NCBI RefSeq assembly: GCF_020991275.1
Contig: NZ_JAJLQY010000003.1
Location: 1 to 64,000 of the forward strand
Direction of reading: 5' to 3'
Length of the DNA: 64,000 nt
Source of the DNA: Actinocorallia sp. API 0066
Lineage (GTDB): Bacteria; Actinomycetota; Actinomycetes; Streptosporangiales; Streptosporangiaceae
Within the stretch, counting starts at the first letter, position 1, and each line of letters opens with the position of its first letter. The notes below the pieces were generated by a model. It made no database searches and was not told the origin of the DNA. It saw only the letters and a list, made by a program, of their open reading frames with translations. This document shows positions 23,742-49,370 of this stretch, one piece after another. A program made the translations under genes and the position numbers.

Positions 23742-23755
23742 CATAATGTATTATG
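23742..23755. promoter_or_regulatory. AT-rich palindromic box 1, before CoA-transferase
   Basis: CATAATGTATTATG is palindromic except at the two central bases and matches CATAATATATTATG at 13 of 14. It ends 37 bases before the CoA-transferase start. The surrounding 200-base gap otherwise holds only the iron box and no gene. Confidence 0.75.
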
Positions 23756-23792
23756 CGTCACAACCCCTGGTTGATTGAAGCGAGGTCCCTCC

Positions 23793-24968
23793 GTGCAGCA
23801 CAAACCCCTCACCGGCATCCGCGTCCTCGAACTCGGGAGCTACATCTCCCTGCCCTACGCCGGGGCGCTCCTGTCCGCGCTGGGCGCCGACGTGGTGAAG
23901 GTGGAGCGGCCGGAGGTGGGCGAGGACTTCCGGCGCCGCGCCAACGACAAAAGCCCGTTCTTCATCCAGTACAACGCGGGCAAGCGCAGCCTGAGCGTCG
24001 ACCTCAAGCGGCCCGAGGGCGTCGAGCTCGTCAAGGCGCTGGTGCCGCGCTTCGACGTGGTGCTGGAGAACCTGCGGCCCGGCAAGCTCGCCGCGCTCGG
24101 CCTCGGCCCCGACGTGCTGGCCGGGCTGCGTCCCGACCTGATCCACGGCTCGGTCAACGGGTTCGGCGAGGGCGGCCCGCTCGCCCACCGGCCCGCCTAC
24201 GACACGATCGGGCAGTCCTTCAGCGGGCTCTACTCGATCCTCGGCGAGCCCGGCTCCGCCCAGCTGTCCGGGACGATCTTCGCCGACCTCATCAGCGGGT
24301 TCACCACCCTGACCGGGGTGCTCGCCGCGCTCGTCGGCCGGGGCAGGTCCGGCGCGGGCGTGCGGGTGGACACCTCGATCATGGAGGCGGTCAGCACCCT
24401 CACCGCCGACGCGCTCACCCAGTACCACGACACCGGCGCCGCCCCGCACCGGCAGAGCCGCCACCCGCAGGCGCAGAACTTCTGTGTCGCGACGGCCTCC
24501 GGCGAGAGCATCGCGATCCACCTGTCGTCCTCGGAGAAGTTCTGGGGCAACTTCTGCGACGCCATGGGCCGTCCCGACCTCAAGACCGACCCCCGCTTCT
24601 CGGTCTACCGGCTCCGCGAGGACAACTACTTCGCACTCGTCCCGATCGTCGAGGCGGAGTTCGCCAAGCGGACGGCGGAGGAGTGGGACAAGCTCCTCTC
24701 CGAGTTCGACGTCCCCTTCGCCCCGGTCCTCACCATGGCCACCTGGACGACGCACCCGCAGGTCCAGTGGCTCGACCTGCTGGAGCCGACGCCGGACGAC
24801 GGGATGGCGCTGCTCCGGCCGCCGTGGCGCTTCGACGGCGTCCGCCCCGACCGCGGCGGCGTGACGCCCCGCGTCGGCCAGCACACCAGGGAGGTCGCCG
24901 CGGAGGTCTACGCCGCCGCCGAGATCGACGCGCTCATCGAGGCCGGCGTCCTGTTCGCCGACGCCTGA
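23793..24968 (+). CDS. CaiB/BaiF family III CoA-transferase
   Basis: This protein of about 391 residues is a family III CoA-transferase, which moves CoA between carboxylic acids through an aspartyl-CoA intermediate. Family features are the LTGIRVLELGSYISLPYAG start, GADVVKVERP, NKSP-like NDKSPFFIQYN, DVVLENLRPG and the VNGFGEGGPLAHRPAYD segment that includes the catalytic Asp (PAYD). The GTG start is preferred over an upstream TTG because GAGG lies eight bases before it. It is the first gene after an AT-rich box shared with other genes of the region, and is convergent with a second CoA-transferase only 14 bases away. The acid substrate is unknown. Confidence 0.9.
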   Translation: MQHKPLTGIRVLELGSYISLPYAGALLSALGADVVKVERPEVGEDFRRRANDKSPFFIQYNAGKRSLSVDLKRPEGVELVKALVPRFDVVLENLRPGKLAALGLGPDVLAGLRPDLIHGSVNGFGEGGPLAHRPAYDTIGQSFSGLYSILGEPGSAQLSGTIFADLISGFTTLTGVLAALVGRGRSGAGVRVDTSIMEAVSTLTADALTQYHDTGAAPHRQSRHPQAQNFCVATASGESIAIHLSSSEKFWGNFCDAMGRPDLKTDPRFSVYRLREDNYFALVPIVEAEFAKRTAEEWDKLLSEFDVPFAPVLTMATWTTHPQVQWLDLLEPTPDDGMALLRPPWRFDGVRPDRGGVTPRVGQHTREVAAEVYAAAEIDALIEAGVLFADA

Positions 24969-24982
24969 CGCCCGGCGGCCGG

Positions 24983-26125
24983 TCAGCCGTCGGCCACCTC
25001 GGCGCGGATCGCGTCGGTGTGCTCGCCCAGCGCGGGGACGGCACCGGCCGGGACGCGCCAGTCACGGCCGAGCGCGGGCGGCAGCAGGGCGGGCACCGGG
25101 CCGGCCGGCGTGCCGACCTCGCGCCAGCGCTCCCGCTTGACCAGTTGCGGGTGCGCGGCGAGGTCGGCGACGCTGTTCAGCCTGGCGTTGCCGATGCCCG
25201 CCTCGTCGGCGAGTCGCTGCACCTCGGCGAGGTCGCGGGCGGCGCACCAGGCGCCCAGCACGGCGTCGAGTTCCGCGCGCCGCTCCACCCGGTCGGCGTT
25301 GCGGGCGTACCGGGGGTCGGCGGCCAGGTCGGGCCGCCGCAGGAGGTTCTCGGCGAGCCGCCGCCACTCCCGGTCGCTGGTGGTGCCCAGGACGGCCGTC
25401 TGGCCGTCGCGGGTCGGGTAGGCGCCGTAGGGCGCGATCATCGGGGAGCCCATGCCGACGGGCACCGGCTCCTCGCCGCTGTGCAGCACCCCGTTCAGCG
25501 CGAAGCCCATGAACTCGGCGACGACGTCGAGCATCGCGATCGGGATGACCGTGCCGTGCCCGGTCCGCTCCCGCTCGTACAGCGCGGCGAGGATGCCCGA
25601 GTAGGCGTACAGGGCGGTGCCGATGTCGGCGACGGGGATGCCGGGCTTGGCGGGCGCGCCGGGCAGCCCGGTGATCGAGCAGGACCCGCCCTCGGCCTGG
25701 ACGAGCAGGTCGTAGGCGCGCTTGTGGTCGAGCGGCCCGCCCTTGCCGTAGCCGGAGATGTCCACGACGATCAGCCGCGGGTGCCGGTCGAGGAGGTCGT
25801 CGGGCGCGAGGCCGAGCCTGCCGAGCGCGCCGGGCGCGAGGTTGCTGACGAACACGTCGGCCCTGGCCAGGAGCCGGGTGAACACCTCGAAGTCGGCCGC
25901 GTCGGTGAGGTCGAGCGCCGCTGACTCCTTGCCGTGGTTCAGCCAGACGAAGTGCGCGGCCAGGCCGCGCACCACACCGTCGTAGTGCCGGGTCGAGTCG
26001 CCGATCCCGGGGTTCTCGACCTTGATCACCCGGGCGCCGAGGTCGGCGAGGTGGCGGGTGGCGAGCGGTGCCGAGATCGCCTGTTCCAGCGACAGGACGG
26101 TGACGCCCTCCAGGGGAGCGCTCAT
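24983..26125 (-). CDS. CaiB/BaiF family III CoA-transferase
   Basis: A 380-residue family III CoA-transferase with LEGVTVLSLEQAISAPLATR, GARVIKVENPGIGDSTRHYD, DVFVSNLAPGALGRLGL and KRAYDLLVQAEGG, where the Asp of AYD is the expected catalytic residue. The GDSTRHYD and SNLAPGA variants resemble the subgroup that includes itaconate and citramalate CoA-transferases, though this is only a family impression. The start has AAAGGAG seven bases upstream; the longer open frame is rejected because it would run through the AT-rich operator. It is not closely similar to the neighbouring transferase, so the two probably act on different acids in one pathway. Confidence 0.9.
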   Translation of the reverse strand: MSAPLEGVTVLSLEQAISAPLATRHLADLGARVIKVENPGIGDSTRHYDGVVRGLAAHFVWLNHGKESAALDLTDAADFEVFTRLLARADVFVSNLAPGALGRLGLAPDDLLDRHPRLIVVDISGYGKGGPLDHKRAYDLLVQAEGGSCSITGLPGAPAKPGIPVADIGTALYAYSGILAALYERERTGHGTVIPIAMLDVVAEFMGFALNGVLHSGEEPVPVGMGSPMIAPYGAYPTRDGQTAVLGTTSDREWRRLAENLLRRPDLAADPRYARNADRVERRAELDAVLGAWCAARDLAEVQRLADEAGIGNARLNSVADLAAHPQLVKRERWREVGTPAGPVPALLPPALGRDWRVPAGAVPALGEHTDAIRAEVADG

Positions 26126-26198
26126 CGGGCCGCTCCTTTCCGTGACGCGTGCGGGGAAACGGAGCGGACGCGGTGCCGACCGTCGTGAGCAAAGAGCG

Positions 26199-26212
26199 CA
26201 AAATATATCATG
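26199..26212. promoter_or_regulatory. AT-rich palindromic box 2, before the second CoA-transferase
   Basis: CAAAATATATCATG matches CATAATATATTATG at 12 of 14. It lies about 75 bases before the minus-strand CoA-transferase, inside the 298-base divergent gap to the secreted propeller gene. The rest of that gap shows no gene. Confidence 0.65.
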
Positions 26213-26423: not shown

Positions 26424-27884
26424 TTGTTCAGGAACACGAAGCTTCACCCGCGCACCGCCGCGACCGCCTCCGCGGCCGCGCTGACCCTGGCGGCCACCGC
26501 GCTGCTGGCCTCCGCGCCCGCCACCGCGGCCCCCGAGCCCGCCGACACCGCCCCGAAGTCCCGCTTCCTGCTGACCGGCGGCACCGCCTCGATGGACACC
26601 GCCGTCTTCCGGCTCGGCCGGGAAGGCTCCCTCGCGAAGGTCCCCGGATCGCCGTACAAGACGGACTTCGGCTTCTCGGTCGTCGTCAGCCCCGACGCGA
26701 AGACCGCTTACATCGCGAGCCTCAAGAACAACTCCATCACCGGCTACCGGATCGGCGCCCAGGGGTCCCTCACCCCGCTGCCCGGCGCCAAGATCGTCGC
26801 CGAGACACCCGTCATCGGCCTCGCCCTCACCCCCGACGGCAAGCGGCTGTTCGCCACCATCGGCGGGCTCAACGGCAAGGTCCGCTCCTACGACGTCGCC
26901 GCGTCGGGCGAGCTCAGGCCCTCCGGCGCCCCCGAGTTCCGCCTCGGCGGCGGCACCCTGCTCAGCCTCCCGGCGGTCACCCCCGACGGGAAGCACCTGT
27001 ACGTCGCGGGCATCTTCGCCAACAACGTCTACGCGCTCAGGATCGGCAAGGACGGCACCCTCACCCAGCTCGGCGACCCCGTGCCGACCGGGAACACCGC
27101 GGTGCTGCCGTCGATCACCCCGGACGGCCGCTTCCTCTACATCACCAACGAGAACAGCGAGAACGTCTCCGGCTTCGCCATCGGCGCGAACGGCAGGCTC
27201 ACCCCGACGCCCGGCTCGCCCTACGCGACCGGCGGCATGCCGCACGGCGTCGCGATCACCGCCGACTCGCGCCGCCTGTACCTGCCCGAGGCGGCGGGCG
27301 GCGACATCCCCGGCTTCGCGATCGGCGCCGACGGCAGGCTCACCCCGCTGCCCGGCTCGCCCTACCCCGGCCCGCGCGACGGCAACATGCCGGGCCTGGT
27401 CAGGCTCAGCCCCGACGGAAGCAAGCTCTTTGTCATCGACGTGCTCACCAGGCACATCTCGTCGCGGATCTACACCTACGCTGTGAACCCCGACGGCAGC
27501 CTCACCGAGTCCGGGCTGCCCGCCGTGGACACCGGCGTGGTGTTCTCCGACGGCCCCGCCACCGTGATCACCCCGAACCTGGGCCCGGTCGCGGCGCTGA
27601 AGGCCACCGGCGGGAACGGCCGCACCAGGACCTTCTCGGCCAGGGAGTCGCGCGACCCGGACGGCACGGTCGCCGCCTACCGCTGGACCTTCGGCGACGG
27701 CACCAGCAGGACCACCACGTCGCCGACCGTCAGCCACACCTACGCGGCCCCGGGGAGGCACACCGTCAGCGTCACGGTGACGGACGACGAGAACTGCTCG
27801 ACCGACCTCTTCTACACCGGCCAGACCGTGCACTGCGGCGGCGGTGACGCCGCCCGCGCGACCACGGAGGTCGCCGTGGACTGA
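26424..27884 (+). CDS. Secreted beta-propeller (lactonase/YVTN-type) protein with PKD domain
   Basis: The 486-residue protein has a Sec signal peptide (KLHPRTAATASAAALTLAAT through ATAAPEP, cleavage around residue 36) and is exported. Residues about 45-385 hold repeated propeller blades of the form TPDGKHLYVAG, TPDGRFLYITN and SPDGSKLFVID, each followed by a GYRIGAQGSLTPL-like strand, as in the lactonase/YncE fold. Residues about 395-480 form a PKD domain (RDPDGTVAAYRWTFGDGT, HTYAAPGRHTVSVTVTD). The role is unknown; such proteins bind surfaces or small molecules. The start appears to be TTG with GGAGA upstream, making the N-terminus slightly uncertain. It sits between two box-controlled catabolic genes, with its own strand and terminator. 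Confidence 0.82.
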   Translation: MFRNTKLHPRTAATASAAALTLAATALLASAPATAAPEPADTAPKSRFLLTGGTASMDTAVFRLGREGSLAKVPGSPYKTDFGFSVVVSPDAKTAYIASLKNNSITGYRIGAQGSLTPLPGAKIVAETPVIGLALTPDGKRLFATIGGLNGKVRSYDVAASGELRPSGAPEFRLGGGTLLSLPAVTPDGKHLYVAGIFANNVYALRIGKDGTLTQLGDPVPTGNTAVLPSITPDGRFLYITNENSENVSGFAIGANGRLTPTPGSPYATGGMPHGVAITADSRRLYLPEAAGGDIPGFAIGADGRLTPLPGSPYPGPRDGNMPGLVRLSPDGSKLFVIDVLTRHISSRIYTYAVNPDGSLTESGLPAVDTGVVFSDGPATVITPNLGPVAALKATGGNGRTRTFSARESRDPDGTVAAYRWTFGDGTSRTTTSPTVSHTYAAPGRHTVSVTVTDDENCSTDLFYTGQTVHCGGGDAARATTEVAVD

Positions 27885-28016: not shown

Positions 28017-28041
28017 ATGGAAACCCACCACAGGATCCGAG

Positions 28042-28055
28042 CATAATATATCATG
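28042..28055. promoter_or_regulatory. AT-rich palindromic box 3, before aldehyde dehydrogenase
   Basis: CATAATATATCATG differs from the perfect palindrome CATAATATATTATG at one base. It ends 28 bases before the ATG of the aldehyde dehydrogenase, so it overlaps or closely follows the promoter, a position suited to repression. Confidence 0.8.
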
Positions 28056-29723: not shown

Positions 29724-30185
29724 TCAGCGGAGGACGCGCTCGTGGATCTCCGGGATCGGGTGCGGGATCTTGGCGGTGCCCTCCGGGAGCGACTCCAGGA
29801 CCTCACCCGTCGAGGAGATGATCTCGACGAGGTAGCCGTCGGGGTCCACCGCGATGGTGATCGTGACGCCGCCGACCGACAGCGGCGGCTCGAAGGCGAG
29901 CTCGTGGCCCGCGGCCTTGAGCTCCTCCGCCGCGGCGGCCGCGTCGTCGACGTTGAGGACCACGTTCGTCCACGACGCCTGGCCCGAGTGCACCGGCAGC
30001 GCGTCGCCCGCGATGAGGACGAGCGAAGGCTTGCCGTCGGCGCCGGCCAGGACGACCTCGATGACGTCGGGGCCGGTGAACTCGATGCGGTGCACCTCGG
30101 TGAAGCCCAGAACCGTCGTGTAGAAGGCCACCGACTTCTCGATGTCGCTCACGACGATCTTCGACTGGGCGTAACGGGCTTGCAT
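29724..30185 (-). CDS. VOC (glyoxalase/dioxygenase-fold) family protein
   Basis: A 153-residue protein of the vicinal oxygen chelate superfamily, built from two beta-alpha-beta-beta-beta units: AQSKIVVSDIEKSVAFYTTV with LGFTEVHRIEF, and VVLNVDDAAAAAEELKAAG with DPDGYLVEIIS. Members are lyases, epimerases, dioxygenases or binding proteins, usually with a divalent metal. The metal ligands cannot be placed with certainty, although E in LVEII is a usual one. GGAGG precedes the ATG. It is divergent from a small alpha/beta-barrel protein, with an AT-rich box between them, so it probably belongs to the same catabolic regulon. Confidence 0.85.
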   Translation of the reverse strand: MQARYAQSKIVVSDIEKSVAFYTTVLGFTEVHRIEFTGPDVIEVVLAGADGKPSLVLIAGDALPVHSGQASWTNVVLNVDDAAAAAEELKAAGHELAFEPPLSVGGVTITIAVDPDGYLVEIISSTGEVLESLPEGTAKIPHPIPEIHERVLR

Positions 30186-30328
30186 TCCTGTACCTCCAAG
30201 AGGGGGGGTGAACGGTACGGAAGAACCGCCGCCGAGCGCCCGATCGGCGGCGTGCGCAGCATCATGGACTACGTATTATGTATTGAAACACACACCCAGA
30301 AGAGACGCGCTTCACATCCGAAGCAATG

Positions 30329-30342
30329 CACGATATATTATC
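30329..30342. promoter_or_regulatory. AT-rich palindromic box 4, divergent VOC/small barrel promoter
   Basis: CACGATATATTATC matches the reverse complement of box 3 (CATGATATATTATG) at 12 of 14. It ends 53 bases before the small protein gene. A weaker AT-rich stretch, ACGTATTATGTATTG near 30271, could be a second site nearer the VOC gene. Confidence 0.65.
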
Positions 30343-30395: not shown

Positions 30396-30737
30396 ATGGG
30401 TCAGTACACCTACATCGTCCTGACGAACCCGGTCGAAGGCCGCGAGGACGAGTACAACGACTGGTACGACAACACCCACCTGCACGACGCCCTGCGGATT
30501 CCGGGCTTCGTCGCGGCCCAGCGGTTCGAGCTGGCCGACGCGCAGCGGGCCGAGCCGCCGCACCCGTGGAAGTACCTGGCCATCTACGAGCTGGAGATCG
30601 ACGACCCGCAGAAGACCGTCGACGCGCTCGCCGCCGCCTACAACACCCCCGACATGATCATCAGCGAGGCGCTGTCCCAGGTCCGCCTGGGCTGGATCTA
30701 CCAGCCGATCACCGAGCGCCTCGAAGCCAAGCGCTGA
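30396..30737 (+). CDS. Small dimeric alpha/beta-barrel protein (DUF4286-like)
   Basis: This 113-residue protein begins YIVLTNPVEGREDEYNDWYD and continues HLHDALRIPGFVAAQRF, the pattern of DUF4286/EthD-like ferredoxin-fold proteins that pair into an alpha/beta barrel. Relatives are often found in gene sets for breakdown of hydrophobic compounds, where they may act as small isomerases, cyclases or ligand carriers; no activity can be assigned here. The ATG has GGAGAGGAG about eleven bases upstream. An AT-rich box lies directly before it and a terminator follows, so it is probably transcribed alone. Confidence 0.82.
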   Translation: MGQYTYIVLTNPVEGREDEYNDWYDNTHLHDALRIPGFVAAQRFELADAQRAEPPHPWKYLAIYELEIDDPQKTVDALAAAYNTPDMIISEALSQVRLGWIYQPITERLEAKR

Positions 30738-30834: not shown

Positions 30835-30951
30835 GCCCGCTCCGAGCTGGTCCGGCACGGCGGGGCTGGCTGCGCGGCACTCGATTTCATCTCGAAACCG
30901 GCGGCCCGTTGCCGTCGATCCGCGCGCGAACTACCGTGCAGGTGAACATCA

Positions 30952-30976
30952 TGCATCATATGAAACTCATGATGCA
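30952..30976. promoter_or_regulatory. Inverted repeat upstream of the sensor kinase
   Basis: TGCATCAT and ATGATGCA form perfect 8-bp arms around a 9-base spacer, about 45 bases before the kinase gene in an otherwise AT-rich pocket. It is unlike the CATAATATATTATG boxes and may be a separate operator. Confidence 0.5.
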
Positions 30977-31019: not shown

Positions 31020-33275
31020 GTGCGCGGTAGACGGTCGGCGACCAGGAGCCCGAGGAGGTCAGGAGCCGCCCCCGTCGGCGGACGGCTCGCCCTCGTCCTG
31101 GTCCTCCCCCTCGTCTCGCTCGTCGCGCTGTGGGCCTTCGCGGCCGGCGCGTCGCTCAACGAGGCGCTGCGAATGCTTGACCTTCGGGCCCAGACCGAAT
31201 ACCTGCACAAACCCATCGAGGGGGTGATCATCGCGATCCAGGAGGAGCGCACGGCGGCCGCCATGGGCACCTCCGACTTCGCCGACAAGGTCTCCAGGAC
31301 CGACACCCTCATCGCCGGGTTCCGCGCCGAGGCGTTCTCCCCGGACAGCCGCGACGTGATGGACCCGATCACCGAGACCCGGCTCCGCGCCGTGGACGAC
31401 GCCCTCACCGGGATCTCCACCCTGCGGGCCCAGGTGAAGGACGCGAACCCGCTCGACGTCGTCAACGGCTACAGCGAGGTCTTTGACACCATCATGTACC
31501 TGATGGGTGTTGTGGTCTCCATCGACGACCTCGACATCCAGCGCAACGGCGCCTCGGTGCTCGACCTGTTCCGGTCCAGCGACCTCCTGATGCGCCAGAC
31601 CGCGCTGCTGGGCGGCCTGCCCCACGACGGGAAGCTCGACCCCGCCCAGCGCGCCGCGTTCGCGGGCTGGGCCAGCGCCCGTGAGCAGTTCTTCCGCCTG
31701 GGCGTGTCCGGCCTCGACGCGGAGTACGCGGCGAAGTTCGAGGCGGCGGCGCGCACCCCCGAGTACGCGCGCCTCACCGACCTGGAGCGGCGGATCGGCG
31801 TCGCCGGGGTCAACACCAAGAACGGGCCGTCCGTCGCCGAGTGGCAGCAGGCCGTCGGCGCCGCGATGCCCGCGCTGTTCGGGCCCACCCCGGACGTCGT
31901 CACCGCGCTGCGCGCCGACGTCGAGCCGATCGGGCGGCAGATCATGACGCGGCTGGTCGTCGCGGGCGGCCTCGGGCTCCTCGCCGTCATCGGGTCGCTG
32001 CTGCTGTCGATCCGGCTCGCGCGGAGCATCACCGGCGACCTCAAAGGGCTGGAGAAGGCGGCGCACACCCTGGCCGACGAGCGGCTGCCCGACGTCGTCG
32101 CCCGGCTGCGGCGCGGCGAGGACGTCGACAGGTCTCTCGCCGAGGCGCCGCTGCCCGGTGACGCCAGGACCAGCGAGATCGTGTCGGTGGCGCGGGCGTT
32201 CGGCACGGTCCAGCACACCGCCGTCGAGGTCGCGATCGGCGAGGCGCACCTGCGGCAGAGCATCGGCAAGGTGTTCGTCAACCTGTCCTGGCGCAGCCAG
32301 GGCCTCCTGCAACGCCAGCTCCAGCTCCTCGACCAGATGGAGCGGCGCGCGGCGAGCCCCGAGGAACTCGACGACCTGTTCAAGGTCGACCACCTGACGA
32401 CCCGGATGCGGCGGCACGCCGAGGGTCTGGTGATCCTGTCCGGAGAGCCGACCGTGCGCGCATTCGACCACCCCGTACCGATCGAGGACATCATCAGGGC
32501 GGCCATCGGGGAGGTGGAGGACTACACGCGGGTCGAGCCGATCGTCTCCCGGTCGTCCTCCATCACCGGCGCCATCGTCGCCGACGTCATCCACCTGCTC
32601 GCCGAACTCATCGAGAACGCCACGGTGTTCTCGCCGCCCGGCACCGAGGTGCTCGTCAAGGCCGAGACGGTCGCCAACGGCCTCGCCGTCGAGATCGTCG
32701 ACCGCGGGCTCGGGCTGTACCCGGACCAGATCGCGGAGCTGAACGGCAGGCTCGCCGACCCGCCCGAGTTCGACCTCGCCGACTCCAGCAGGCTCGGCCT
32801 GTTCGTCGTCGCGCGGCTCGCCGACCGGCACGGCATCAGGGTCGCGCTCCAGCCGTCCGCGTACGGCGGCACGACGGCCGTGGTGCTCATCCCGTCGGCG
32901 CTCACCGTGCACGAGGCGGAGCGGCGGCCCGCCGTCGAGCGGTCGGCGCCCCGGCCGGAGCTGGAGCCGCCCGCGACGTCCTCGGGCGCGCACGCGCGGC
33001 CGCCCTCCCCCGTGCTGGAGCCGCCGCGCGGCGCGGACAACAGGTTCGAGTCCGGGAGCACGCCGGGACGGCTGCCGCGCCGCCGCCGCCAGCAGAACAT
33101 GGCGCCGCAGCTGCGGACCAGCGCCCCACCCGCCGCCTCCCTGCCCGACGACGACTTCGAAGAGCCCGATCCCGAGTCGAGCCGCGCCCTCATGGCCTCG
33201 CTCCAGCAGGGCTGGACGATGGCGCGCGAAGGGAAGAACCCCGCAGACCCCGAGAACGAACGGAACAGACCGTGA
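31020..33275 (+). CDS. Nitrate/nitrite-sensing (NIT) domain sensor histidine kinase, conservon CvnA-type
   Basis: A 751-residue membrane sensor: one helix at residues about 20-43, an external helical NIT-like domain to about 305, a second helix (LVVAGGLGLLAVIGSLLLSI, about 310-335), a HAMP-like linker and a HATPase_c domain with N box LLAELIENATVFSPPG and G box EIVDRGLGLYP. The usual phospho-acceptor helix is replaced by VDHLTTRMRRHAEGLVILSG, as in CvnA proteins of actinobacterial conservons. The last 130 residues are disordered and Pro-rich. The GTG start lies 12 bases after GAGGAGG; an ATG at 31013 is better spaced but opens a five-codon frame ending in TAG. The stop overlaps the next gene (GTGA). 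Confidence 0.87.
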   Translation: MRGRRSATRSPRRSGAAPVGGRLALVLVLPLVSLVALWAFAAGASLNEALRMLDLRAQTEYLHKPIEGVIIAIQEERTAAAMGTSDFADKVSRTDTLIAGFRAEAFSPDSRDVMDPITETRLRAVDDALTGISTLRAQVKDANPLDVVNGYSEVFDTIMYLMGVVVSIDDLDIQRNGASVLDLFRSSDLLMRQTALLGGLPHDGKLDPAQRAAFAGWASAREQFFRLGVSGLDAEYAAKFEAAARTPEYARLTDLERRIGVAGVNTKNGPSVAEWQQAVGAAMPALFGPTPDVVTALRADVEPIGRQIMTRLVVAGGLGLLAVIGSLLLSIRLARSITGDLKGLEKAAHTLADERLPDVVARLRRGEDVDRSLAEAPLPGDARTSEIVSVARAFGTVQHTAVEVAIGEAHLRQSIGKVFVNLSWRSQGLLQRQLQLLDQMERRAASPEELDDLFKVDHLTTRMRRHAEGLVILSGEPTVRAFDHPVPIEDIIRAAIGEVEDYTRVEPIVSRSSSITGAIVADVIHLLAELIENATVFSPPGTEVLVKAETVANGLAVEIVDRGLGLYPDQIAELNGRLADPPEFDLADSSRLGLFVVARLADRHGIRVALQPSAYGGTTAVVLIPSALTVHEAERRPAVERSAPRPELEPPATSSGAHARPPSPVLEPPRGADNRFESGSTPGRLPRRRRQQNMAPQLRTSAPPAASLPDDDFEEPDPESSRALMASLQQGWTMAREGKNPADPENERNRP

Positions 33276-33658
33276 CCGGCGAACTGAACTGGCTGCTCGA
33301 CGACCTCGTCGACCGGGTGCCTGCCGTCCACCAAGCCCTCCTCCTCTCCCGCGACGGCCTGGTGATGGCCAACTCGCGCGGACTCGCCGCCAAGGACGCC
33401 CAGTTCCTCGCCGCGCTCTCCTCCGGGTTCCACAGCCTGGCCAGGGGCGCCGCCGAGCACTACGCGGCCGACCGCATCAACCAGGCCGTCATCGAACTGG
33501 ACGACCGGCTCTTCTTCGTGCTGCCCGCGGGCACCGGCACCTGCCTCGCCGTGCTCAGCGACTCCGGCCCGCAGGCCGCCCAGGTCGCCTACGAGATGGC
33601 CGTGCTCATCGAACGCGTCAGCCGCCACCTCACCGCCGCCGCCCGCACCGGCACCTGA
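33272..33658 (+). CDS. Roadblock/LC7 domain protein (conservon CvnB-type)
   Basis: A 128-residue Roadblock/LC7 protein (LNWLLDDLVDRVPAVHQALL, SRDGLVMANS, FVLPAGTGTCLAVLSD). In conservons these proteins bind CvnA and a small Ras-like GTPase to form a membrane signalling complex. It is translationally coupled to the kinase by a 4-base overlap. The DUF742 protein (CvnC) and GTPase (CvnD) that normally follow are absent: the next 500 bases are repetitive non-coding DNA and then a gene on the other strand, so this is a two-gene remnant or a minimal form. Confidence 0.92.
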   Translation: MTGELNWLLDDLVDRVPAVHQALLLSRDGLVMANSRGLAAKDAQFLAALSSGFHSLARGAAEHYAADRINQAVIELDDRLFFVLPAGTGTCLAVLSDSGPQAAQVAYEMAVLIERVSRHLTAAARTGT

Positions 33659-36343: not shown

Positions 36344-37138
36344 TCAGAACCGCGGCTTGCGGCGTTCGCGGTGGGAGGCGAGGCCCTCCCTGACCTCCGG
36401 GCCGCCGAACCCATAGAACTCCAGGGCCAGGGAGGCGTCGAAGATGGATCCGGCGACCTGCCGGTACCAGTTGTTGAGCGACTGCTTGGTCCAGCGGATC
36501 GCGGTCGGCGCGCCGGTGGCCAGCTCGCGGGCGACCTCGCGCGCGGTCGGCAGCAGCTCCTCGGCCTCGTCCACGCACAGCGAGACGAGCCCGATCCGCT
36601 CGGCCTCCTCGCCGTTCAGGGGACGGCACGTCATCAGGTAGTACTTGGCCTTGGCCATGCCGCACAGCAGCGGCCAGCAGATCGCCGCGTGGTCGCCCGC
36701 CGCGACGCCGAGCCTGGTGTGCCCGTCGATGATCTTCGCCGTCCTGGTGACGACGGAGACGTCGGCGAGGATGCCCGCGACGAGCCCGGCGCCGACGGCG
36801 GGGCCGTGGATGGCCGAGACGATGGGCTTGGAGCAGTCGAGGAGGTTGTAGACGAGGTCGCGGGCCTCACGCATGACGCGGGAGCGGGTCTCGAAGTCCT
36901 CGGCGATCCGCTCGACCATCTCGAACGCGCCGCCCGCGGAGAAGCCCTTGCCCTCGCCCCTGATGAGGATCGCCTTGACCTCGGGGTCGGCGTCGAACGC
37001 GCGCCACACCTCGGCGAGGTCGGCGTGCGCGCCCTCGCTCACCGCGTTCAGGTTCGGCGCGTCGAAGACGAGTTCGACGACGCCGTGCTCGTCGGGCTTG
37101 TCCACCCGCAGGTGCTCGAAGCGCGCGTAGCGGCTCAT
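36344..37138 (-). CDS. Enoyl-CoA hydratase/isomerase (crotonase) family protein
   Basis: A 264-residue crotonase-fold enzyme. The oxyanion-hole segments are [12 protein letters not shown] and [13 protein letters not shown]. The catalytic region reads [20 protein letters not shown] instead of the usual VGLGVIPGAGGTQ, so the two acid residues of classic hydratases are altered; this HAAICWPLL subgroup is common in actinobacteria and its chemistry is mostly untested. AGAGGA precedes the ATG. It lies in the operon CoA-transferase, hydratase, CitE-like lyase, with its own AT-rich box in the 48-base gap upstream. Confidence 0.9.
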
Positions 37139-37170: not shown

Positions 37171-37184
37171 CATCATATATTAAG
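37171..37184. promoter_or_regulatory. AT-rich palindromic box 5, between CoA-transferase and hydratase
   Basis: CATCATATATTAAG matches CATAATATATTATG at 11 of 14, and the reverse complement of box 3 at 12 of 14. It lies between the CoA-transferase stop and the hydratase start, 33 bases before the ATG, indicating an internal regulated promoter. Confidence 0.65.
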
Positions 37185-38456: not shown

Positions 38457-38470
38457 CATAATATATTGTT
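38457..38470. promoter_or_regulatory. AT-rich palindromic box 6, before the CoA-transferase operon
   Basis: CATAATATATTGTT keeps the first eleven bases of CATAATATATTATG and matches at 12 of 14. It begins 26 bases upstream of the minus-strand CoA-transferase start, between it and the LysR gene stop. Confidence 0.72.
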
Positions 38471-38536: not shown

Positions 38537-39433
38537 TCACCCCACCGTCGGCAGGACGCGTTCGGACAGCTCCAGGACCTTGGCCAGGGCCGGATCCCGG
38601 TCGTCCGCGCGCCACAGGAGATAGCCGGAGATCGGCGGCATCCCCTCGGTGAGCGGGACGATCCGGACGCCGTCCAGTGTCATCTGGGCGACCGCCGAAT
38701 CGGTGGTGAAGTGGAGTCCGACTCCGGCCGCGACGAGCGCGACGCACGTCCAGGAGTCGGGCGCGGTCTGCACGATGTCGGGCGCGAACCCGGCGGTGTG
38801 GCAGCCCGCGACGAACATCGCGTGCACCGCCGACTCCACCGACTCCGGCAGCGCGATGAGCGGCTCGCCGTACAGGTCGGCGAACGAGACCGACTCGGCG
38901 CCCGCGAAGGGGTGCCCGGCCGGGACGGCGAGCACCCCGTGCTCGCGGGCGACCATCCGGCTCTCCACCCCGACGGGCGCGTGCGAGAAGCGGGCGATGG
39001 CGAGGTCCGTCGTGTGGTCGAGCAGCTCCCGGACGGCGGCGGGCCCGTACCGTCCGGGCCGGAACGCCAGGTCGATGCGGCGGTGCCGCTCCCGGACCGC
39101 CCGCGCGAGCGCGCCGACCATCGCCTGGGAGGACGGCCCGGCGAAGCTGAACCTGACCCGGCCGCTCTCGCCCCGGTGCGCCGCCTCGACCTCGCTCCTG
39201 GCCCGCTCCCCCAGCCGGACGATCGCCGCCGCCGGTTCGAGCAGCGCCCGTCCGGCCGGGGTCAGCTCGACCCGGCGGGTCGTGCGGTCGAAGAGCGGGG
39301 TGCCCAGATCGTCCTCCAGCGCCTTGATCGTCCGGCTCAGGTAGGGCTGCGCGAGGTGCAGCCGCCGGGCCGCCCTGCCGAAGTGCAGCTCCTCCGCCAC
39401 GGCGAGGAACACCTCGAGTTGCACAAAGTCCAC
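38537..39433 (-). CDS. LysR-family transcriptional regulator
   Basis: A 298-residue LysR-type regulator with an N-terminal winged helix (LEVFLAVAEELHFGRAARRL, HLAQPYLSRTIKALE) and an effector-binding domain from about residue 90. It starts at GTG and is divergent from the acyl-CoA dehydrogenase operon across a 77-base gap, the usual arrangement for a LysR protein that controls the facing operon in response to a pathway intermediate. The gap contains AT-rich sequence and a repeated TATTGG (GTATTGGTATTGG) but no copy of the palindromic box, so LysR may be a second layer of control. A CoA-thioester or free acid effector is an inference. Confidence 0.9.
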   Translation of the reverse strand: MDFVQLEVFLAVAEELHFGRAARRLHLAQPYLSRTIKALEDDLGTPLFDRTTRRVELTPAGRALLEPAAAIVRLGERARSEVEAAHRGESGRVRFSFAGPSSQAMVGALARAVRERHRRIDLAFRPGRYGPAAVRELLDHTTDLAIARFSHAPVGVESRMVAREHGVLAVPAGHPFAGAESVSFADLYGEPLIALPESVESAVHAMFVAGCHTAGFAPDIVQTAPDSWTCVALVAAGVGLHFTTDSAVAQMTLDGVRIVPLTEGMPPISGYLLWRADDRDPALAKVLELSERVLPTVG

Positions 39434-39510
39434 ACCCCGACTTTATCCATATCCGCATCAATCAGAGAAGTATTGGTATTGGACATGCATCAGAACGGAT
39501 CTGAGAATCG

Positions 39511-40689
39511 ATGACCATGAGTGACGAGAAGGTCAGTGCCGAGGACTTCGCGGAGATCCTCGCGACCGTGCGGCGCTTCATCCGCACCGACGTGATCCCC
39601 CGCGAGATCGAGATCATGGCGACCGACCGCATCCCGGACGACCTGCGGAACGCCGCCGCCCAGATGGGCCTGTTCGGCTACGCCATCCCGGCGCGGTGGG
39701 GCGGGCTCGGGCTCGACCTCACCCAGGACGTCGAGCTGGCCATGGAGTTCGGCTACACCACGCTCGCGCTGCGCTCGCTGTTCGGCACCAACAACGGGAT
39801 CGCCGGGCAGGTGCTCGTCAACTTCGGCACCGACGAGCAGCGCGAGCGGTGGCTGGAGCCGATCGCGTCCGGCGAGGTCATCGCCTCGTTCGCGCTCACC
39901 GAGCCCGGCGCCGGATCCAACCCGGCCGGGCTGCGCACCCGCGCCCGCCGCGACGGCGCCGACTGGATCCTCGACGGCCAGAAGCGGTTCATCACCAACG
40001 CCCCGCTCGCCGGGCTGTTCGTGGTGTTCGCGCGGACCCGCGAACCGTCCAAGGGCGACCCCGGCATCGCCGTGTTCCTCGTGCCCGCCGACACCCCCGG
40101 CCTGTCCATCGCCCCCAAGGACGCCAAGATGGGCCAGGAGGGCGCCTGGACCGCCGACGTCATCCTCGACGGCGTCCGGGTGCCGGACTCCGCGCTCGTC
40201 GGCGGCGCCGAGGACGTCGGCTACAGGGCGGCGATGGCGTCGCTGGCCCGAGGCCGGGTGCACATCGCGGCGCTCGCGGTCGGCTCGGCGCAGCGGGCGC
40301 TCGACGAGTCCGTCGCCTACGCCGAGGCCAACACCCAGGGCGGCGTGCCGATCGGCGACCACCAGCTCGTCCAGGCGATGCTGGCCGACCAGTACACCGG
40401 CGTCGCGGCGGGACGCGCCCTCGTCCGCGAGGCCGCGCTGAAGTACCACACCGGCGAGGACAGGCGCGTCACCCCGTCGGCGACCAAGCTGTTCTGCACC
40501 GAGATGGCAGGGAAGGTCGCCGACCTGGCCGTGCAGATCCACGGCGGCACCGGCTACATGCGCGAGGTGCCCGTCGAGCGCATCTACCGTGAGGTCCGGC
40601 TGCTGCGCCTGTACGAGGGCACCAGCGAGATCCAGCGCCTCATCATCGGCGGCGCCCTCATCCGCGGCCAGCGCGCCGCCCGTTCCTGA
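39511..40689 (+). CDS. Acyl-CoA dehydrogenase family protein
   Basis: A 392-residue FAD-dependent acyl-CoA dehydrogenase introducing an alpha,beta double bond. The family landmarks FALTEPGAGSNPAG, RRDGADWILDGQKRFITNA, MGQEGAWTADVIL and QIHGGTGYMREVPVERIYRE are present, and the catalytic base is probably E369 in LYEGTSEIQR. It opens a four-gene operon (dehydrogenase, SDR, MaoC hydratase, second dehydrogenase) that covers the steps of a beta-oxidation-like spiral. Two ATGs lie six bases apart and neither has a strong ribosome site, so the start could be either. Confidence 0.92.
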   Translation: MTMSDEKVSAEDFAEILATVRRFIRTDVIPREIEIMATDRIPDDLRNAAAQMGLFGYAIPARWGGLGLDLTQDVELAMEFGYTTLALRSLFGTNNGIAGQVLVNFGTDEQRERWLEPIASGEVIASFALTEPGAGSNPAGLRTRARRDGADWILDGQKRFITNAPLAGLFVVFARTREPSKGDPGIAVFLVPADTPGLSIAPKDAKMGQEGAWTADVILDGVRVPDSALVGGAEDVGYRAAMASLARGRVHIAALAVGSAQRALDESVAYAEANTQGGVPIGDHQLVQAMLADQYTGVAAGRALVREAALKYHTGEDRRVTPSATKLFCTEMAGKVADLAVQIHGGTGYMREVPVERIYREVRLLRLYEGTSEIQRLIIGGALIRGQRAARS

Positions 40690-40713
40690 CCCACCCCCCA
40701 CGAGGAGAGAATC

Positions 40714-41454
40714 ATGAGCCTGCTTGAAGGCCGCGTGGCCGTCGTCACCGGCGGCGCGCAGGGCATCGGCTTCGCCATCGCCGAGACGTTCGTCGCGCAG
40801 GGCGCCCGGGTCGTCCTCGGCGACCTCGACCTGGCCGCCACCGAGGACGCCGCCAAGCGCCTGGGCGGCCCCGACGTCGCCGCCGCCGTCCGCTGCGACG
40901 TCACCAAGGCCGACGACGTGGACGCGCTGCTCGCCCGCGCCGTCGAGGGCTTCGGCTCGCTCGACGTGCTGGTGAACAACGCCGGGATCACCCGCGACGC
41001 CACCATGCGCACCATGACCGAGGAGCAGTTCGACCAGGTCATCTCGGTCCACCTCAAGGGAAGCTGGAACGGCACCCGCAAGGCGGCCGCCATCATGCGC
41101 GCGCGGAAGAGCGGCGCGATCGTCAACATCTCGTCGCTGTCCGGCAAGGTCGGGCTCGTCGGGCAGACGAACTACTCGGCCGCCAAGGCGGGCGTCGTCG
41201 GGCTGACGAAGGCCGCCGCCAAGGAGCTCGCGCACCACGGTGTCCGGGTCAACGCGGTGCAGCCGGGGCTGATCCGCTCGGCGATGACCGAGGCGATGCC
41301 GCAGAAGGTCTGGGACCAGAAGATGGCCGAGATCCCCATGGGCCGTCCCGGCGAGGTCGCCGAGGTCGCCAACGTCGTGCTGTTCCTCGCCAGCGACCTG
41401 TCCTCGTACATGACGGGCACCGTGCTCGAAGTGACCGGCGGACGGTTCATGTGA
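40714..41454 (+). CDS. SDR family oxidoreductase (FabG-like 3-hydroxyacyl dehydrogenase)
   Basis: A 246-residue short-chain dehydrogenase with the nucleotide loop TGGAQGIG (residues 12-19), the NNAG motif, and the active site S/Y154/K158 in ISSLSGKV and [12 protein letters not shown] after the second strand suggests NAD rather than NADP. It most resembles FabG/3-hydroxyacyl-CoA dehydrogenases and would oxidise the hydroxy product of the hydratase in the same operon. A GAGGAGAG site precedes the ATG and the gene starts 24 bases after the dehydrogenase stop. Confidence 0.92.
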
Positions 41455-41503
41455 CGGGCTCCGGCGATGCCCGGGACGTCCGAGAAGTCCGAGAGGAGAA
41501 GGC

Positions 41504-41959
41504 ATGACCACGCCGTTCGGCTCGCTGGAGGAGGTCCGCGCCGCGCTCGGCACGCCGCTCGGCCCGACCCCGTGGCTGCCCGTGCACCAGGACTGGATCA
41601 ACGAGTTCGGCAGGCTCACCGGCGACCAGCAGTGGATCCACACCGACCCCGACCGCGCCGCGTCCGGACCGTTCGGCACGACGATCGCACACGGGTTCCT
41701 CACGCTGTCGCTCGTCCCGCAGTTCGGCGCGCAGCTGTTCCGACTGGAATTCGGGAGCGCGCGGGTGAACTATGGACTGAACCGGGTTCGGTTTCCCGCG
41801 CCCGTCCCGGTGGACGCCCGCGTCCGCGCGGCCGCCGAGTTCCGCGAACTCAGCCCCTCGGGAGCGGGGCACCAGCTGACCACCCAGTACACGATCGAGC
41901 TCGAGGGAAGCGCCAAACCGGCCTGCGTCGCCGAGACGCTGACGCTGCTGCTGCCCTGA
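41504..41959 (+). CDS. MaoC-like (R)-specific enoyl-CoA hydratase
   Basis: A 151-residue single hot-dog domain of the MaoC/NodN group. The hydratase motif is visible as FGRLTGDQQWIHTDPDRA, with the Asp and His of D-x4-H, and then GTTIAHGFLTLSL. These enzymes hydrate trans-2-enoyl-CoAs or, in C5-dicarboxylate breakdown, itaconyl- or mesaconyl-CoA. GAGAGGAG lies before the ATG. The position between the SDR and the second acyl-CoA dehydrogenase fits a hydration step after dehydrogenation. Confidence 0.92.
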   Translation: MTTPFGSLEEVRAALGTPLGPTPWLPVHQDWINEFGRLTGDQQWIHTDPDRAASGPFGTTIAHGFLTLSLVPQFGAQLFRLEFGSARVNYGLNRVRFPAPVPVDARVRAAAEFRELSPSGAGHQLTTQYTIELEGSAKPACVAETLTLLLP

Positions 41960-41984
41960 CCGTGCCGAAGGAGACCACCCCGCC

Positions 41985-43181
41985 GTGACCCGCCTCGCCC
42001 AGACCGCCGGACTCACCGACGTGCAGCGGGAGATCCTCGCGACCGTCCGCGACTTCGTGGACAAGGAGATCATCCCGCACGCCCAGGCACTCGAACACGC
42101 CGACGCCTACCCCGCCGACATCGTCGCCGGGATGCGCGAGATGGGCCTGTTCGGGCTGACCATCCCCGAGGAGTACGGCGGTCTCGGCGAGTCCCTGCTC
42201 ACCTACGCGCTCGTCGTCGAACAGATCGCGCGCGGCTGGATGAGCGTCTCCGGCGTGATCAACACGCACTTCATCGTCGCGCACATGATCAGGCAGCACG
42301 GCACGCCGGAGCAGAAAGCCGCCTACCTGCCCCGGATGGCGACCGGCGACGTGCGCGGCTCGTTCTCGATGTCCGAGCCCGACCTCGGCTCCGACGTCGC
42401 CGCCATCAAGACCCGCGCCCGCCGCGACGGCGACGGCTACGTCATCGACGGCAGCAAGATGTGGGTCACCAACGGCGGCACCTCCAACCTGCTCGCCGTG
42501 CTCGTCCGCACCGACGAGGGCGCCGCCAAGCCCCACCAGAACCTCACCGCGTTCCTCGTCGAGAAGCCCGCCGGGTTCGGCGAGGTCGCGCCCGGCCTCA
42601 CCATCCCCGGCAAGATCGACAAGATGGGGTACAAGGGCGTCGACACCACCGAGGCGATCTTCGCCGGATACCGGGTCGCCGCCTCCCAGGTGCTCGGCGA
42701 CGCCCCCGGCGGCGGTTTCGCCCAGATGATGGACGGCGTCGAGGTCGGCCGCGTCAACGTCGCCGCCCGCGCCTGCGGCATCGCGCTGCGCGCCTTCGAG
42801 CTGGCCGTGGACTACGCCCAGCAGCGCCGCACCTTCGGCAAGCGCCTCGCCGACCACCAGGCCATCGCCTTCAAGCTCGCCGAGATGGCCACCAAGGTCG
42901 AGGCCGCCCACCTGATGATGGTCAACGCCGCCCGGCTCAAGGACTCCGGCGCCCGCAACGACGTCCAGGCGGGCATGGCCAAGCTCCTCGCCAGCGAGTA
43001 CTGCGCCGAGGTCACCCAGGAGGCGTTCCGCATCCACGGCGGCTACGGCTACTCCAAGGAGTACGAGATCGAACGCCTCATGCGGGAGGCGCCGTTCCTC
43101 CTCATCGGCGAGGGCACCAGCGAGATCCAGAAGACCATCATCAGCCGCGGCCTCCTCACCACCTACCGGAACCCCGCCTGA
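41985..43181 (+). CDS. Acyl-CoA dehydrogenase family protein
   Basis: A 398-residue FAD-dependent acyl-CoA dehydrogenase, distinct in sequence from the first one in the operon. Landmarks are FSMSEPDLGSDVAAIKTRA, GYVIDGSKMWVTNGG, KMGYKGVDTTEAIF and FRIHGGYGYSKEYEIERLM. The catalytic base is probably E376 in IGEGTSEIQK. The GTG start follows GAAGGAG. Having two dehydrogenases in one operon suggests two different acyl substrates, for example before and after chain shortening, or a branched and an unbranched form. A convergent terminator follows. Confidence 0.92.
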   Translation: MTRLAQTAGLTDVQREILATVRDFVDKEIIPHAQALEHADAYPADIVAGMREMGLFGLTIPEEYGGLGESLLTYALVVEQIARGWMSVSGVINTHFIVAHMIRQHGTPEQKAAYLPRMATGDVRGSFSMSEPDLGSDVAAIKTRARRDGDGYVIDGSKMWVTNGGTSNLLAVLVRTDEGAAKPHQNLTAFLVEKPAGFGEVAPGLTIPGKIDKMGYKGVDTTEAIFAGYRVAASQVLGDAPGGGFAQMMDGVEVGRVNVAARACGIALRAFELAVDYAQQRRTFGKRLADHQAIAFKLAEMATKVEAAHLMMVNAARLKDSGARNDVQAGMAKLLASEYCAEVTQEAFRIHGGYGYSKEYEIERLMREAPFLLIGEGTSEIQKTIISRGLLTTYRNPA

Positions 43182-43242: not shown

Positions 43243-44085
43243 TCACGCGGAGCGCCAGACGTCGGCGGCGGCGCGCGTGAACTCGGTGAAGTCGGTGGCC
43301 TCCCGGCCGAGCGCGCGCCGCACCCCGTCCGCGACGACCGCCTCGCGGCCCGCCGCGACGGGGGCGAGCACCGACGTCCACATCGCGGCGTCCGCCTGCG
43401 GCCAACCCTGCCCGACGAGCTCCTTGACGAACTCCTCCGCCGGGACGGCGACATAACGGGCGGCGTGCCCGGAGACGCGCTCGATCTCGGCGAGCGCCTC
43501 GGCCAGTGTCAACGCGCGCGGGCCCGACAGCTCGTACACCTCGCCCGCGTGCCCCTCCTCGGTGAGCGCGGCGACCGCGACGTCCGCGATGTCGCCGGTG
43601 TCGACGAACGCGGCCGCCCCGTCACCGGCGGCCAGCCGCACCTCGCCCGCGCGGACCGGGTCGAGGAAGAAGCCCTCGCTGAAGTTCTGCGCGAACCAGC
43701 CGGGCCGCAGGATCGTCCAGGGCACCCCGCTGGCGCGGACCGCCTCCTCGTTGCGCAAGTGGCCGCCCGCGCCGTGGTAGTCTGGGCCGTAGTAGCCGGG
43801 CACGTCCACCCCGCGCGCCGACAGCAGCACGAGCCGTCCGACGCCGAGATCCGCCGCCCGCGCGACGAACGCGGGAACCGTCTCGGCCTCGTCCGGGGCA
43901 GCGACGTACACCCCGGCGACGTCCTCCAGCGCCGGGCCCCACGTCGCCTCGTCCGTCCAGTCGAAGCGCCGCTCCGCCGTCCGGGACGCCACCCGGACCG
44001 GCACGCCGAGCGCGCTGAGCCGGGCGACGACCTGACGGCCGGTCTTGCCGGTGCCGCCGACGACGAGGATCGGGTCGGATGCCAT
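43243..44085 (-). CDS. NmrA/NAD(P)-binding Rossmann family protein
   Basis: A 280-residue atypical SDR of the NmrA/HSCARG or quinone-reductase-like type. It has the nucleotide loop LVVGGTGKTGRQVVARL near the N-terminus, GVPVRVASRTAERRFDWTD, and LRPGWFAQNFSEGF in the substrate half. There is no YxxxK catalytic pair, as usual in this group; members are NAD(P)H sensors or reductases. AAGGAG lies seven bases before the ATG. It is divergent from an XRE regulator, which probably controls it through the palindrome in the gap. Confidence 0.88.
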   Translation of the reverse strand: MASDPILVVGGTGKTGRQVVARLSALGVPVRVASRTAERRFDWTDEATWGPALEDVAGVYVAAPDEAETVPAFVARAADLGVGRLVLLSARGVDVPGYYGPDYHGAGGHLRNEEAVRASGVPWTILRPGWFAQNFSEGFFLDPVRAGEVRLAAGDGAAAFVDTGDIADVAVAALTEEGHAGEVYELSGPRALTLAEALAEIERVSGHAARYVAVPAEEFVKELVGQGWPQADAAMWTSVLAPVAAGREAVVADGVRRALGREATDFTEFTRAAADVWRSA

Positions 44086-48349: not shown

Positions 48350-48415
48350 CGCGGCGAGGGCTCGTCGTCGGAGCCCTGGCCGCAGGCGGGCGGGCGCGAT
48401 CATCGCGGTCACCTT

Positions 48416-48426
48416 TGGTATACGAT
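48416..48426. promoter_or_regulatory. GntR-type operator before the GntR gene
   Basis: TGGTATACGAT, centred on the palindrome GTATAC, lies 27 bases before the GntR start and resembles FCD-subfamily GntR sites. Autoregulation is inferred. Confidence 0.6.
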
Positions 48427-48452
48427 CCTTAGGCGTTCGAACGAGGTGTTGA

Positions 48453-49166
48453 GTGAAGGTGTCCGGGGTGGAGGCGGTGGTCGCGATCCAGGCCAACAGG
48501 CGGAGGCAGCAGCTACCCGAAGAGGTGGCCAGCTACGTCCGCGAGCAGATCATGTCGGGGGCCTTCCGGCCCGGTGACTTCCTGCGGATCGATCGCATCG
48601 CGGAGGCGGTCGGCGTCAGCAACACACCGGTCCGTGAGGGCCTGGTGGCGCTGGCGAGCGAGGGTTTCATCCAGGCGGTCCCCCGCCGCGGCTTTGTCGT
48701 CTCGCCGTTCACCCGGCAGGACGTGCGCGATCTGTTCTGGGCCCAGGGCAAGCTGGCCGGCGAACTCGCCGCCCGCGCGGCCAAGAAGATCACCCCCGAG
48801 CGGGTCGCCCGGCTCGACTCCATCATCGAGCAGCACGACGCGGCGGCCGCCACCGGCGACCGCGACCTCATCGCCTACCTCGGCCACTCCTTCCACCGCG
48901 AGATCAACCTCGCCGCCGACTCGCCGCGCCTCGCGCACCTGCTGGCGGCCGTCGTCAAGCATCTGCCGAACCGGTTCTACGCGTCGTTGGAGAGCCAGGT
49001 CGAGGCGACGTCCAAGCAGCATCCCGCGCTCGTCGAGGCGCTGCGCGAGCACAACACGCGCAAGGCGCGCACGCTGATGGAGGAGCACATCAGCGACAGC
49101 GCCGCCCATGTCATCGACATGCTGGAGGCGCAGGGCCTCTGGGCGGACGAGGCCAACGGGGACTGA
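48453..49166 (+). CDS. GntR-family (FCD subfamily) transcriptional regulator
   Basis: A 237-residue GntR protein: the winged helix at residues about 18-85 (LPEEVASYVREQIMSGAFRP, GVSNTPVREGLVALASEGF) and an all-helical FCD effector domain with the likely metal ligands in HSFHREINLAA and the later His residues. FCD members respond to organic acids and often control catabolic operons. The GTG start has GAGG six bases upstream. It is transcribed alone between a putative operator and a strong terminator. It is a candidate but unproven regulator of nearby catabolic genes; its own operator does not look like the CATAATATATTATG boxes. Confidence 0.93.
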   Translation: MKVSGVEAVVAIQANRRRQQLPEEVASYVREQIMSGAFRPGDFLRIDRIAEAVGVSNTPVREGLVALASEGFIQAVPRRGFVVSPFTRQDVRDLFWAQGKLAGELAARAAKKITPERVARLDSIIEQHDAAAATGDRDLIAYLGHSFHREINLAADSPRLAHLLAAVVKHLPNRFYASLESQVEATSKQHPALVEALREHNTRKARTLMEEHISDSAAHVIDMLEAQGLWADEANGD

Positions 49167-49186
49167 CCCCGGCCCAGTGAACGCAA

Positions 49187-49220
49187 GAGCGGGGCGGGGC
49201 CTGTCGGCCCCGCCCCGCTC
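49187..49220 (+). terminator. Strong terminator after the GntR gene
   Basis: A perfect 15-bp stem (GAGCGGGGCGGGGCC and complement) closes a 4-base loop. Confidence 0.85.
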
Positions 49221-49348
49221 GTTCGCCATGGCGCCGGCGCCCCCTTCACCACCCCTGACGCGGGAGCGTCGGCGCCACGGCCGTCCCGCTCCGGCCGGAG
49301 CGGGGTGCCCGCGTCGACGGGCGGCGCGCCACGCCGACGACGTAGATC

Positions 49349-49370
49349 ATATTGCGCACAATATATTAGG
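49349..49370. promoter_or_regulatory. AT-rich palindromic box 7 with overlapping inverted repeat
   Basis: CACAATATATTAGG (49357-49370) matches CATAATATATTATG at 11 of 14. It overlaps ATATTGCGCACAATAT (49349-49364), a second inverted repeat with a 4-base centre. Further on, TGCCCGTAACGGGCA (49425-49439) is another perfect palindrome, and CAATATAATGTTT follows near 49466. The 467-base gap between GntR and the GAF regulator thus holds several operator-like sites but no supported gene. Confidence 0.62.

Follow-up and report, generated by a model that had tools for sequence, protein, structure and literature searches.

Atu1419 of Agrobacterium fabrum and McbR (YncC) of Escherichia coli, both FCD proteins of the VanR group, together with BioR, the biotin regulator, are the described systems with which the operator studied here can be compared. 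This operator is the palindrome CATAATATATTATG, which recurs in the first 64 kb (positions 1 to 64,000 of the forward strand, 73% GC; hereafter the window) of contig NZ_JAJLQY010000003.1 of Actinocorallia sp. API 0066 and again on contig C43 of the same genome. We propose it as the putative operator of the GntR/FCD regulator encoded at positions 48453-49166 (+) of the window and of its paralog on C43, a reading based on sequence comparison to which we give a probability of roughly 0.78. No description of this operator was found in the open-licence literature, judged from titles and the beginnings of abstracts, and there its core ATAATATATTAT occurred in unrelated papers only.

Operators of the FadR subfamily follow TKGT-N2/3-ACMA with specific contacts between arginine and guanine, and the BioR operator, TTATMKATAA, is listed outside this consensus (PMC4494728). 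In Atu1419, Arg45 reads G3 of ATGTATACAT, and changing G3/C8 to A/T abolished binding (PMC7797058). McbR is said by a secondary source to bind an ATATAT motif (PMC13343897). The palindrome of Actinocorallia fits the two-base register of the FadR subfamily, in which CATAATATATTATG reads TAAT-AT-ATTA, whereas the invariant GT/AC has become AT/AT (G to A and C to T). Its core is ATATAT in most sites, and the usual GT-Nx-AC operator, which has known exceptions, is not matched. BioR likewise belongs to the FadR subfamily and has an A/T-rich operator departing from GT/AC, though the sequence differs. The likeness to Atu1419 (PMC7797058) extends to a short A/T-rich palindrome with two-base spacing, to sites that overlap −10 boxes and to catabolic targets, and the Actinocorallia protein would also be an FCD-type repressor. 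However, Atu1419 needs G3/C8 and Arg45, whereas here A/T stands in the DNA and Asn, Ile, Ser or Thr in the close homologs.

By the residue pattern of Table 1 in PMC4494728, Arg45 of FadR corresponds to Asn57 of the window protein (S-N-T-P-V-R-E). The G-reading arginine, which is typical of GntR/FCD proteins without strictly defining them, was found in 0 of 40 homologs: the 20 with at least 57% identity have Asn (12), Ile (6), Ser (1) or Thr (1) at that position, and the other 20 have Val (13), Ala (5), Ile (1) or Thr (1). A remote homolog (L020, 34%) has Arg there. McbR carries Ile in place of this arginine, as do the homologs from Gordonia, Tsukamurella and Leucobacter, but its sequence similarity is remote (E = 3.3e-12) and its reported AT-rich sites are very numerous (PMC13343897), whereas here few sites make up one regulon. 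Protein and operator change together, and we infer that the residue contacts the changed base. The motif CATAATATATTATG is real and largely explained, very probably as the operator of an FCD-type GntR protein, and it belongs to an AT-only class that is unusual.

Operator sites in two loci of the Actinocorallia genome

The seven sites reported in a preliminary description of the window were all present where it had placed them, with 1, 2, 1, 3, 2, 2 and 2 mismatches to CATAATATATTATG in order of position. Scores were obtained with a matrix trained on nine sites of this genome, so that the scores of those nine are not independent, and genes were called with a GC-frame script that gives approximate start positions. 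The first site, CATAATGTATTATG (23742-23755, score 30.9), precedes a CoA-transferase III gene starting at 23775 or 23793 (+); CAAAATATATCATG (26199-26212, 27.4) precedes a minus-strand gene of the same family with its likely start at 26125, and CATAATATATCATG (28042-28055, 29.4) an aldehyde dehydrogenase gene at 28084 (+). Between a VOC gene (29724-30185, minus strand) and that of a small barrel-like protein (30396-30737, +) lies CACGATATATTATC (30329-30342, 28.5), placed before the latter. The next two sites, CATCATATATTAAG (37171-37184, 31.5) and CATAATATATTGTT (38457-38470, 24.0), stand before two minus-strand genes, that of the crotonase (36344-37138) and a third one for a CoA-transferase III, whose start is likely at 38431. 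All six end about 25-75 bases 5' of a likely start codon, as the preliminary description had stated with the exception of the last site, CACAATATATTAGG (49357-49370, 26.7), which precedes the gene of a GAF/AAA/Fis-type regulator (49391-51238, +). That gene had been called divergent, and this was wrong: the site is between two genes of the same strand, those of the GntR/FCD and GAF/AAA/Fis proteins.

The matrix scan of the window added weaker copies at 30267-30280 (18.4), before the VOC gene, and at 49469-49482 (16.1), inside the annotated start region of the GAF/AAA/Fis open reading frame (ORF). The true start of this gene is probably further down, because its homologs align only from ORF residue 68-88. 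A weak operator-like site at 30947-30960 (15.1) lies about 60-70 bases 5' of the gene of a NIT-domain histidine kinase at 31020 (+). No other score of at least 10 was found in the rest of the window, nor any further stretch of it within 4 mismatches of CATAATATATTATG.

When sites with at most 2 mismatches to the consensus (strict sites) were searched for in the whole genome (7.01 Mb, 44 contigs), eight were found, six of them in the window and two on C43, and the reversed pattern, used as a control, gave none under the same limit. Six of eight in 64 kb, which is 0.9% of the genome, corresponds to a binomial p of 1.6e-11. One of the C43 sites lies between the genes of a CitE/RipC-like lyase and a CoA-transferase, the other before that of a RipB-like hydratase, and a second GntR/FCD gene is located between the two. 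An additional site with 3 mismatches, CATCATATATTGTC, was found outside both loci (L049:8733, corresponding to G000:C6:38732).

Distribution and conservation in related genomes

A search of 341 genomes of the family, allowing at most 2 mismatches to CATAATATATTATG, gave matches in 50 of them. By tally of the table, the 340 genomes other than our own held 56 matches, with at most 3 per genome, and the reversed control gave 23. An order-wide search with the pattern reached four genomes beyond the family set, and they had no match. A profile scan with the alignment of the two GntR proteins yielded 12 loci. Ten of these had 59-74% identity and were distributed over Saccharopolyspora (four), Gordonia (two), Tsukamurella (three) and a Leucobacter metagenome-assembled genome (one). 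In those ten genomes and our own, CATNATATATNATG at up to 2 mismatches had 76 matches versus 17 for the reversed control. Among the 75 matches listed for these 11 genomes, 36 lay within 30 kb of a GntR gene of the clade, where at most 1.3 would be expected, and 7 were within 1 kb, against an expectation of 0.04; with our own genome excluded, the 30-kb count was 27 of the 59 matches listed (about 1 expected). These counts omit two remote GntR homologs (G003:C214 and G005:C147). In S. indica, 10 of 11 matches fell within 358018-439180 of one contig, around a GntR gene at 378429, and in G. sihwensis the GntR gene is about 2.3 kb away from a site identical to the consensus.

Orthologous promoters were then compared cluster by cluster, taking orthologs of at least 50% identity and sites scoring at least 14 near the start. 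For the CoA-transferase behind the 23742 site (a), 5 of 5 clusters have a site, some of these being shared with neighbours and up to about 300 bp away. A site precedes 2 of 5 orthologs of the CoA-transferase at the 26199 site (b), for which separate inspection revealed a third at G006:C2:160751, and 3 of 5 of the one at the 38457 site (c). The figures are 2/2 for the aldehyde dehydrogenase, 4/5 for the crotonase and 4/4 for the MaoC protein of C43. In G004, G006 and G007 the Fis-type gene has homologs that are immediately preceded by a site. No ortholog of at least 50% identity was found for the VOC gene in the compared stretches, and the SDR gene and the MaoC gene of the window, both internal to operons, had sites in 0/5 orthologs each. 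The first acyl-CoA dehydrogenase has a site in all 5 of its orthologs in other clusters, and the Actinocorallia copy has none; in Actinocorallia a LysR gene is located divergently beside this gene (38537-39511), and LysR may have taken over its control.

These results give good support to the earlier proposal that the genes of a catabolic regulon share an operator: the sites cluster in two loci, they recur at the orthologous promoters of other genera, and the palindrome is conserved. An equal density of the motif elsewhere, or its being a −10 feature, had been named beforehand as outcomes that would speak against this proposal, and neither was seen in the genome and its relatives. The motif is neither a product of chance nor a generic −10 box.

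The candidate regulator and rival explanations

Contrary to the preliminary description, in which no local regulator had an obvious claim to the site, the GntR/FCD protein fits: relatives of it accompany every site-bearing cluster examined, although these clusters had been collected through GntR itself. The first sign of the binder was that the two loci with strict sites each contain a GntR/FCD paralog. The two proteins are 65% identical and have the same recognition helix, and the one of the window matches Pfam PF00392 (GntR winged helix-turn-helix, N-terminal) with 57.1 bits (cut-off 27) and PF07729 (FCD, C-terminal) with 68.8 bits (cut-off 24.3). The LysR, TetR, XRE and histidine kinase proteins of the window were discarded as binders, none having a relative of at least 50% identity in the other stretches. 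The Fis-type regulator and the XRE protein of C43 were discarded as well, since they are missing from several site-bearing genomes.

Promoters of the GntR genes themselves are also enriched in sites. Outside our own genome, 13 of 38 score at least 14, several of the 13 belonging to close relatives of one another, with L011 and L012 sharing their site with a divergent crotonase gene and that of L084 resembling another motif; overall the count is 14 of 40, one being a training site. Control promoters reached the same score in 2/287, 2/89, 0/15 (window outside the cluster) and 4/62 cases, the last of these in G334, a genome with its own A/T-rich palindromes. Among GntR homologs of 40-51% identity, 5 of 20 promoters had a site, whereas 2 of 287 did among the remaining promoters in these loci (p = 1.4e-5). 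This test is partly independent; some of the five belong to near relatives. In S. ipomoeae, three GntR/FCD paralogs within 8 kb (L013 3299-3961, 8958-9620 and 9998-10657) each have their own site, 74-81 bp 5' of the aligned starts.

Two side observations concern other sequences. The homologs whose recognition helix carries Ala (SATPVREAL; L081, L083, L084, L086 and L087) share a different sequence around ATTCTATAGAAT 5' of their own genes, as if operators had diverged by subclade. On one 90-kb contig of G334 (G334:C2; 10901, 56705 and 77230; L097, L098 and L099) there are three palindromes, CATAATT(A/C/G)ATTATG, with a similar arm and a different centre, perhaps the operator of another regulator.

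Regarding the mode of action, 71 sites score at least 18 in the stretches, and both half-sites are conserved. Deep gene interiors account for 62% of the sequence but contain only 4 of the 71. At 13 of them TTGAC starts 21-29 bp 5' of the site centre, facing the gene; this is 13 of 104 gene-facing orientations versus 1 of at most 38 other orientations, and the rest of the range from −100 to +95 contains 17 other TTGAC. In three promoters of CoA-transferase b the arrangement is TTGACC-N17-TAATAT, which places the −10 box inside the palindrome. The position of the sites over the −10 region in relatives points to repression, likely by covering that region. The histidine triad of the FCD domain (H148, H190 and H212) is aligned in 40 of 40 homologs, its equivalence with that of TM0439 and LldR being deduced from the spacing to residues quoted in PMC4746285 and not from structure. 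In CitO, the same FCD site holds a metal needed for sensing citrate (PMC4746285), and by analogy the inducer here may be of carboxylate type. A GntR dimer would read the palindrome, whose two-base spacing is also that of some FadR-subfamily operators and whose core, AT-AT-AT in place of GT-N2-AC, matches the loss of the G-reading arginine. This dimer would repress a two-locus regulon of CoA-transferases, aldehyde dehydrogenase, crotonase, hydratases, lyase and the Fis-type regulator, until an intermediate, either a carboxylate or a CoA thioester, occupies the FCD metal site and releases it.

Activation by GntR instead of repression has a precedent in CitO, an FCD protein that activates with citrate (PMC4746285). 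However, CitO protects −41 to −65 and −51 to −74 according to the same source, whereas our sites are 25-75 bases before the starts and over the −10 in relatives, so that an activating GntR appears unlikely. The position of the relatives' sites, often at −10 distance below TTGAC boxes, could also be read as a mere strong A/T-rich −10 element that is palindromic by accident. Such an element is hardly credible here, as the genome has strict sites in two loci only and the 340 other genomes of the family have almost none, non-cluster promoters have few sites (0/15 in the window and 2/287 in the other loci), and both half-sites are conserved.

Other proteins could bind the palindrome. Fis-type regulators often bind inverted repeats, which would favour the GAF/AAA/Fis protein as an activator acting on it with GntR as a bystander, as do the sites before its own gene and those of its homologs in G004, G006 and G007. 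These three genomes are, however, the only ones with relatives of at least 50% identity; of three further genomes with sites, G005 and G010 reach at best 43% and 36%, and G009 yields no relative at E 1e-60. Sites before the GntR homologs elsewhere would also remain unexplained, and we consider a Fis-type activator quite improbable. A further candidate among the regulators of these clusters, the C43 XRE protein (L005:12774-13670), has relatives of 63-67% in three Saccharopolyspora clusters (G004, G005 and G006 only). At E 1e-50, G010, where the consensus occurs without a mismatch, yields no relative of it, the best one in G009 (45%) is far from the cluster, and XRE promoters have no site (scores of at most 5.2), all of which makes such a binder very improbable.

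Several data weigh against the GntR/FCD protein as binder and repressor. The presence of GntR in 11 of 11 genomes is due to the way these were selected, and it excludes its rivals more than it proves GntR. The GntR promoter of the window contains a poor match only, TTTGGTATACGATC (48414-48427, score 8.2), an uncertain and possibly degenerate self-site. In S. elongata, whose GntR is 74% identical with the same helix, 0 of 4 matches are near GntR, as is 0 of 1 in Tsukamurella M9C, and Tsukamurella 1534 has no match. Four further close homologs of the family (G198, G209, G286 and G302) are in genomes without any strict site. Within 15-20 kb of these four GntR genes, three loci lack homologs of the queried cluster genes besides GntR, and G302 has one acyl-CoA dehydrogenase; the self-promoter site scores 18.7 in G302 and a poor 7.7 in G286. 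Sites were also found before 0/5 orthologs of CitE, 1/4 of the C43 CoA-transferase and 1/5 of the C43 acyl-CoA dehydrogenase. Finally, 0 of the 13 well-placed −35 boxes are in our own genome, and several of them are orthologous pairs.

Genes of the regulon and their significance

Pfam identified the CoA-transferase III proteins at 23775, 24983 and 37187, the aldehyde dehydrogenase at 28084, the VOC protein at 29724, the crotonase at 36344 and a run of acyl-CoA dehydrogenase, SDR, MaoC and acyl-CoA dehydrogenase genes at 39511-43181. Regulators were recognized at 38537 (LysR), at 43465 (XRE-MLTR) and in the ORF at 46611 (TetR), besides the GntR/FCD protein and the GAF/AAA/Fis-type one (HTH_8 and AAA lid), the latter being a proposed member of the regulon. 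The histidine kinase gene is followed by that of a Roadblock/LC7 protein (31020-33658), and a relative of the kinase (34%) is encoded beside a site in S. indica (G004). A protein with beta-propeller and PKD domains (26424-27884) is encoded inside the cluster, and two Saccharopolyspora clusters contain relatives of it with 52-54% identity. The adjoining region 1340-23546, with an ornithine/lysine monooxygenase, a periplasmic binding protein, a 5238-aa ORF and two ABC transporters, resembles a siderophore cluster.

In S. indica and S. oryzae the genes of both Actinocorallia loci are united in one cluster, which in S. indica also includes MmgE/PrpD proteins, hydantoinase-like subunits and transporters. 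The NCBIfam models that came up were RipB, RipC and 2-methylfumaryl-CoA isomerase, all far below cut-off, and they hint at chemistry of methyl-branched C5 dicarboxyl-CoA compounds. The Rip pathway of itaconate degradation, considered as the purpose of the regulon, was not supported: RipB and RipC are the best or near-best models of two C43 proteins, yet with 124.6 bits of the required 340 and 166 of 375. None of the CoA-transferases reached an NCBIfam cut-off.

A broader proposal, to which we would give even odds, is that this clade gave up the G-reading arginine and reads an AT-only core, so that the operator is itself −10 DNA in genomes of about 70% GC; that the catabolic pathway under its control is CoA-dependent, patchily distributed and so far undescribed; and that its operators diverged by subclade. 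With the GntR/FCD protein, an orphan operator gains a candidate regulator. The matched pair of a lost arginine and a G changed to A mirrors the operator mutation that abolished binding of Atu1419, and may bear on how GntR proteins read DNA. A catabolic regulon common to Actinocorallia, Saccharopolyspora, Gordonia and Tsukamurella is outlined, and with the matrix more genes of its pathway may be located.

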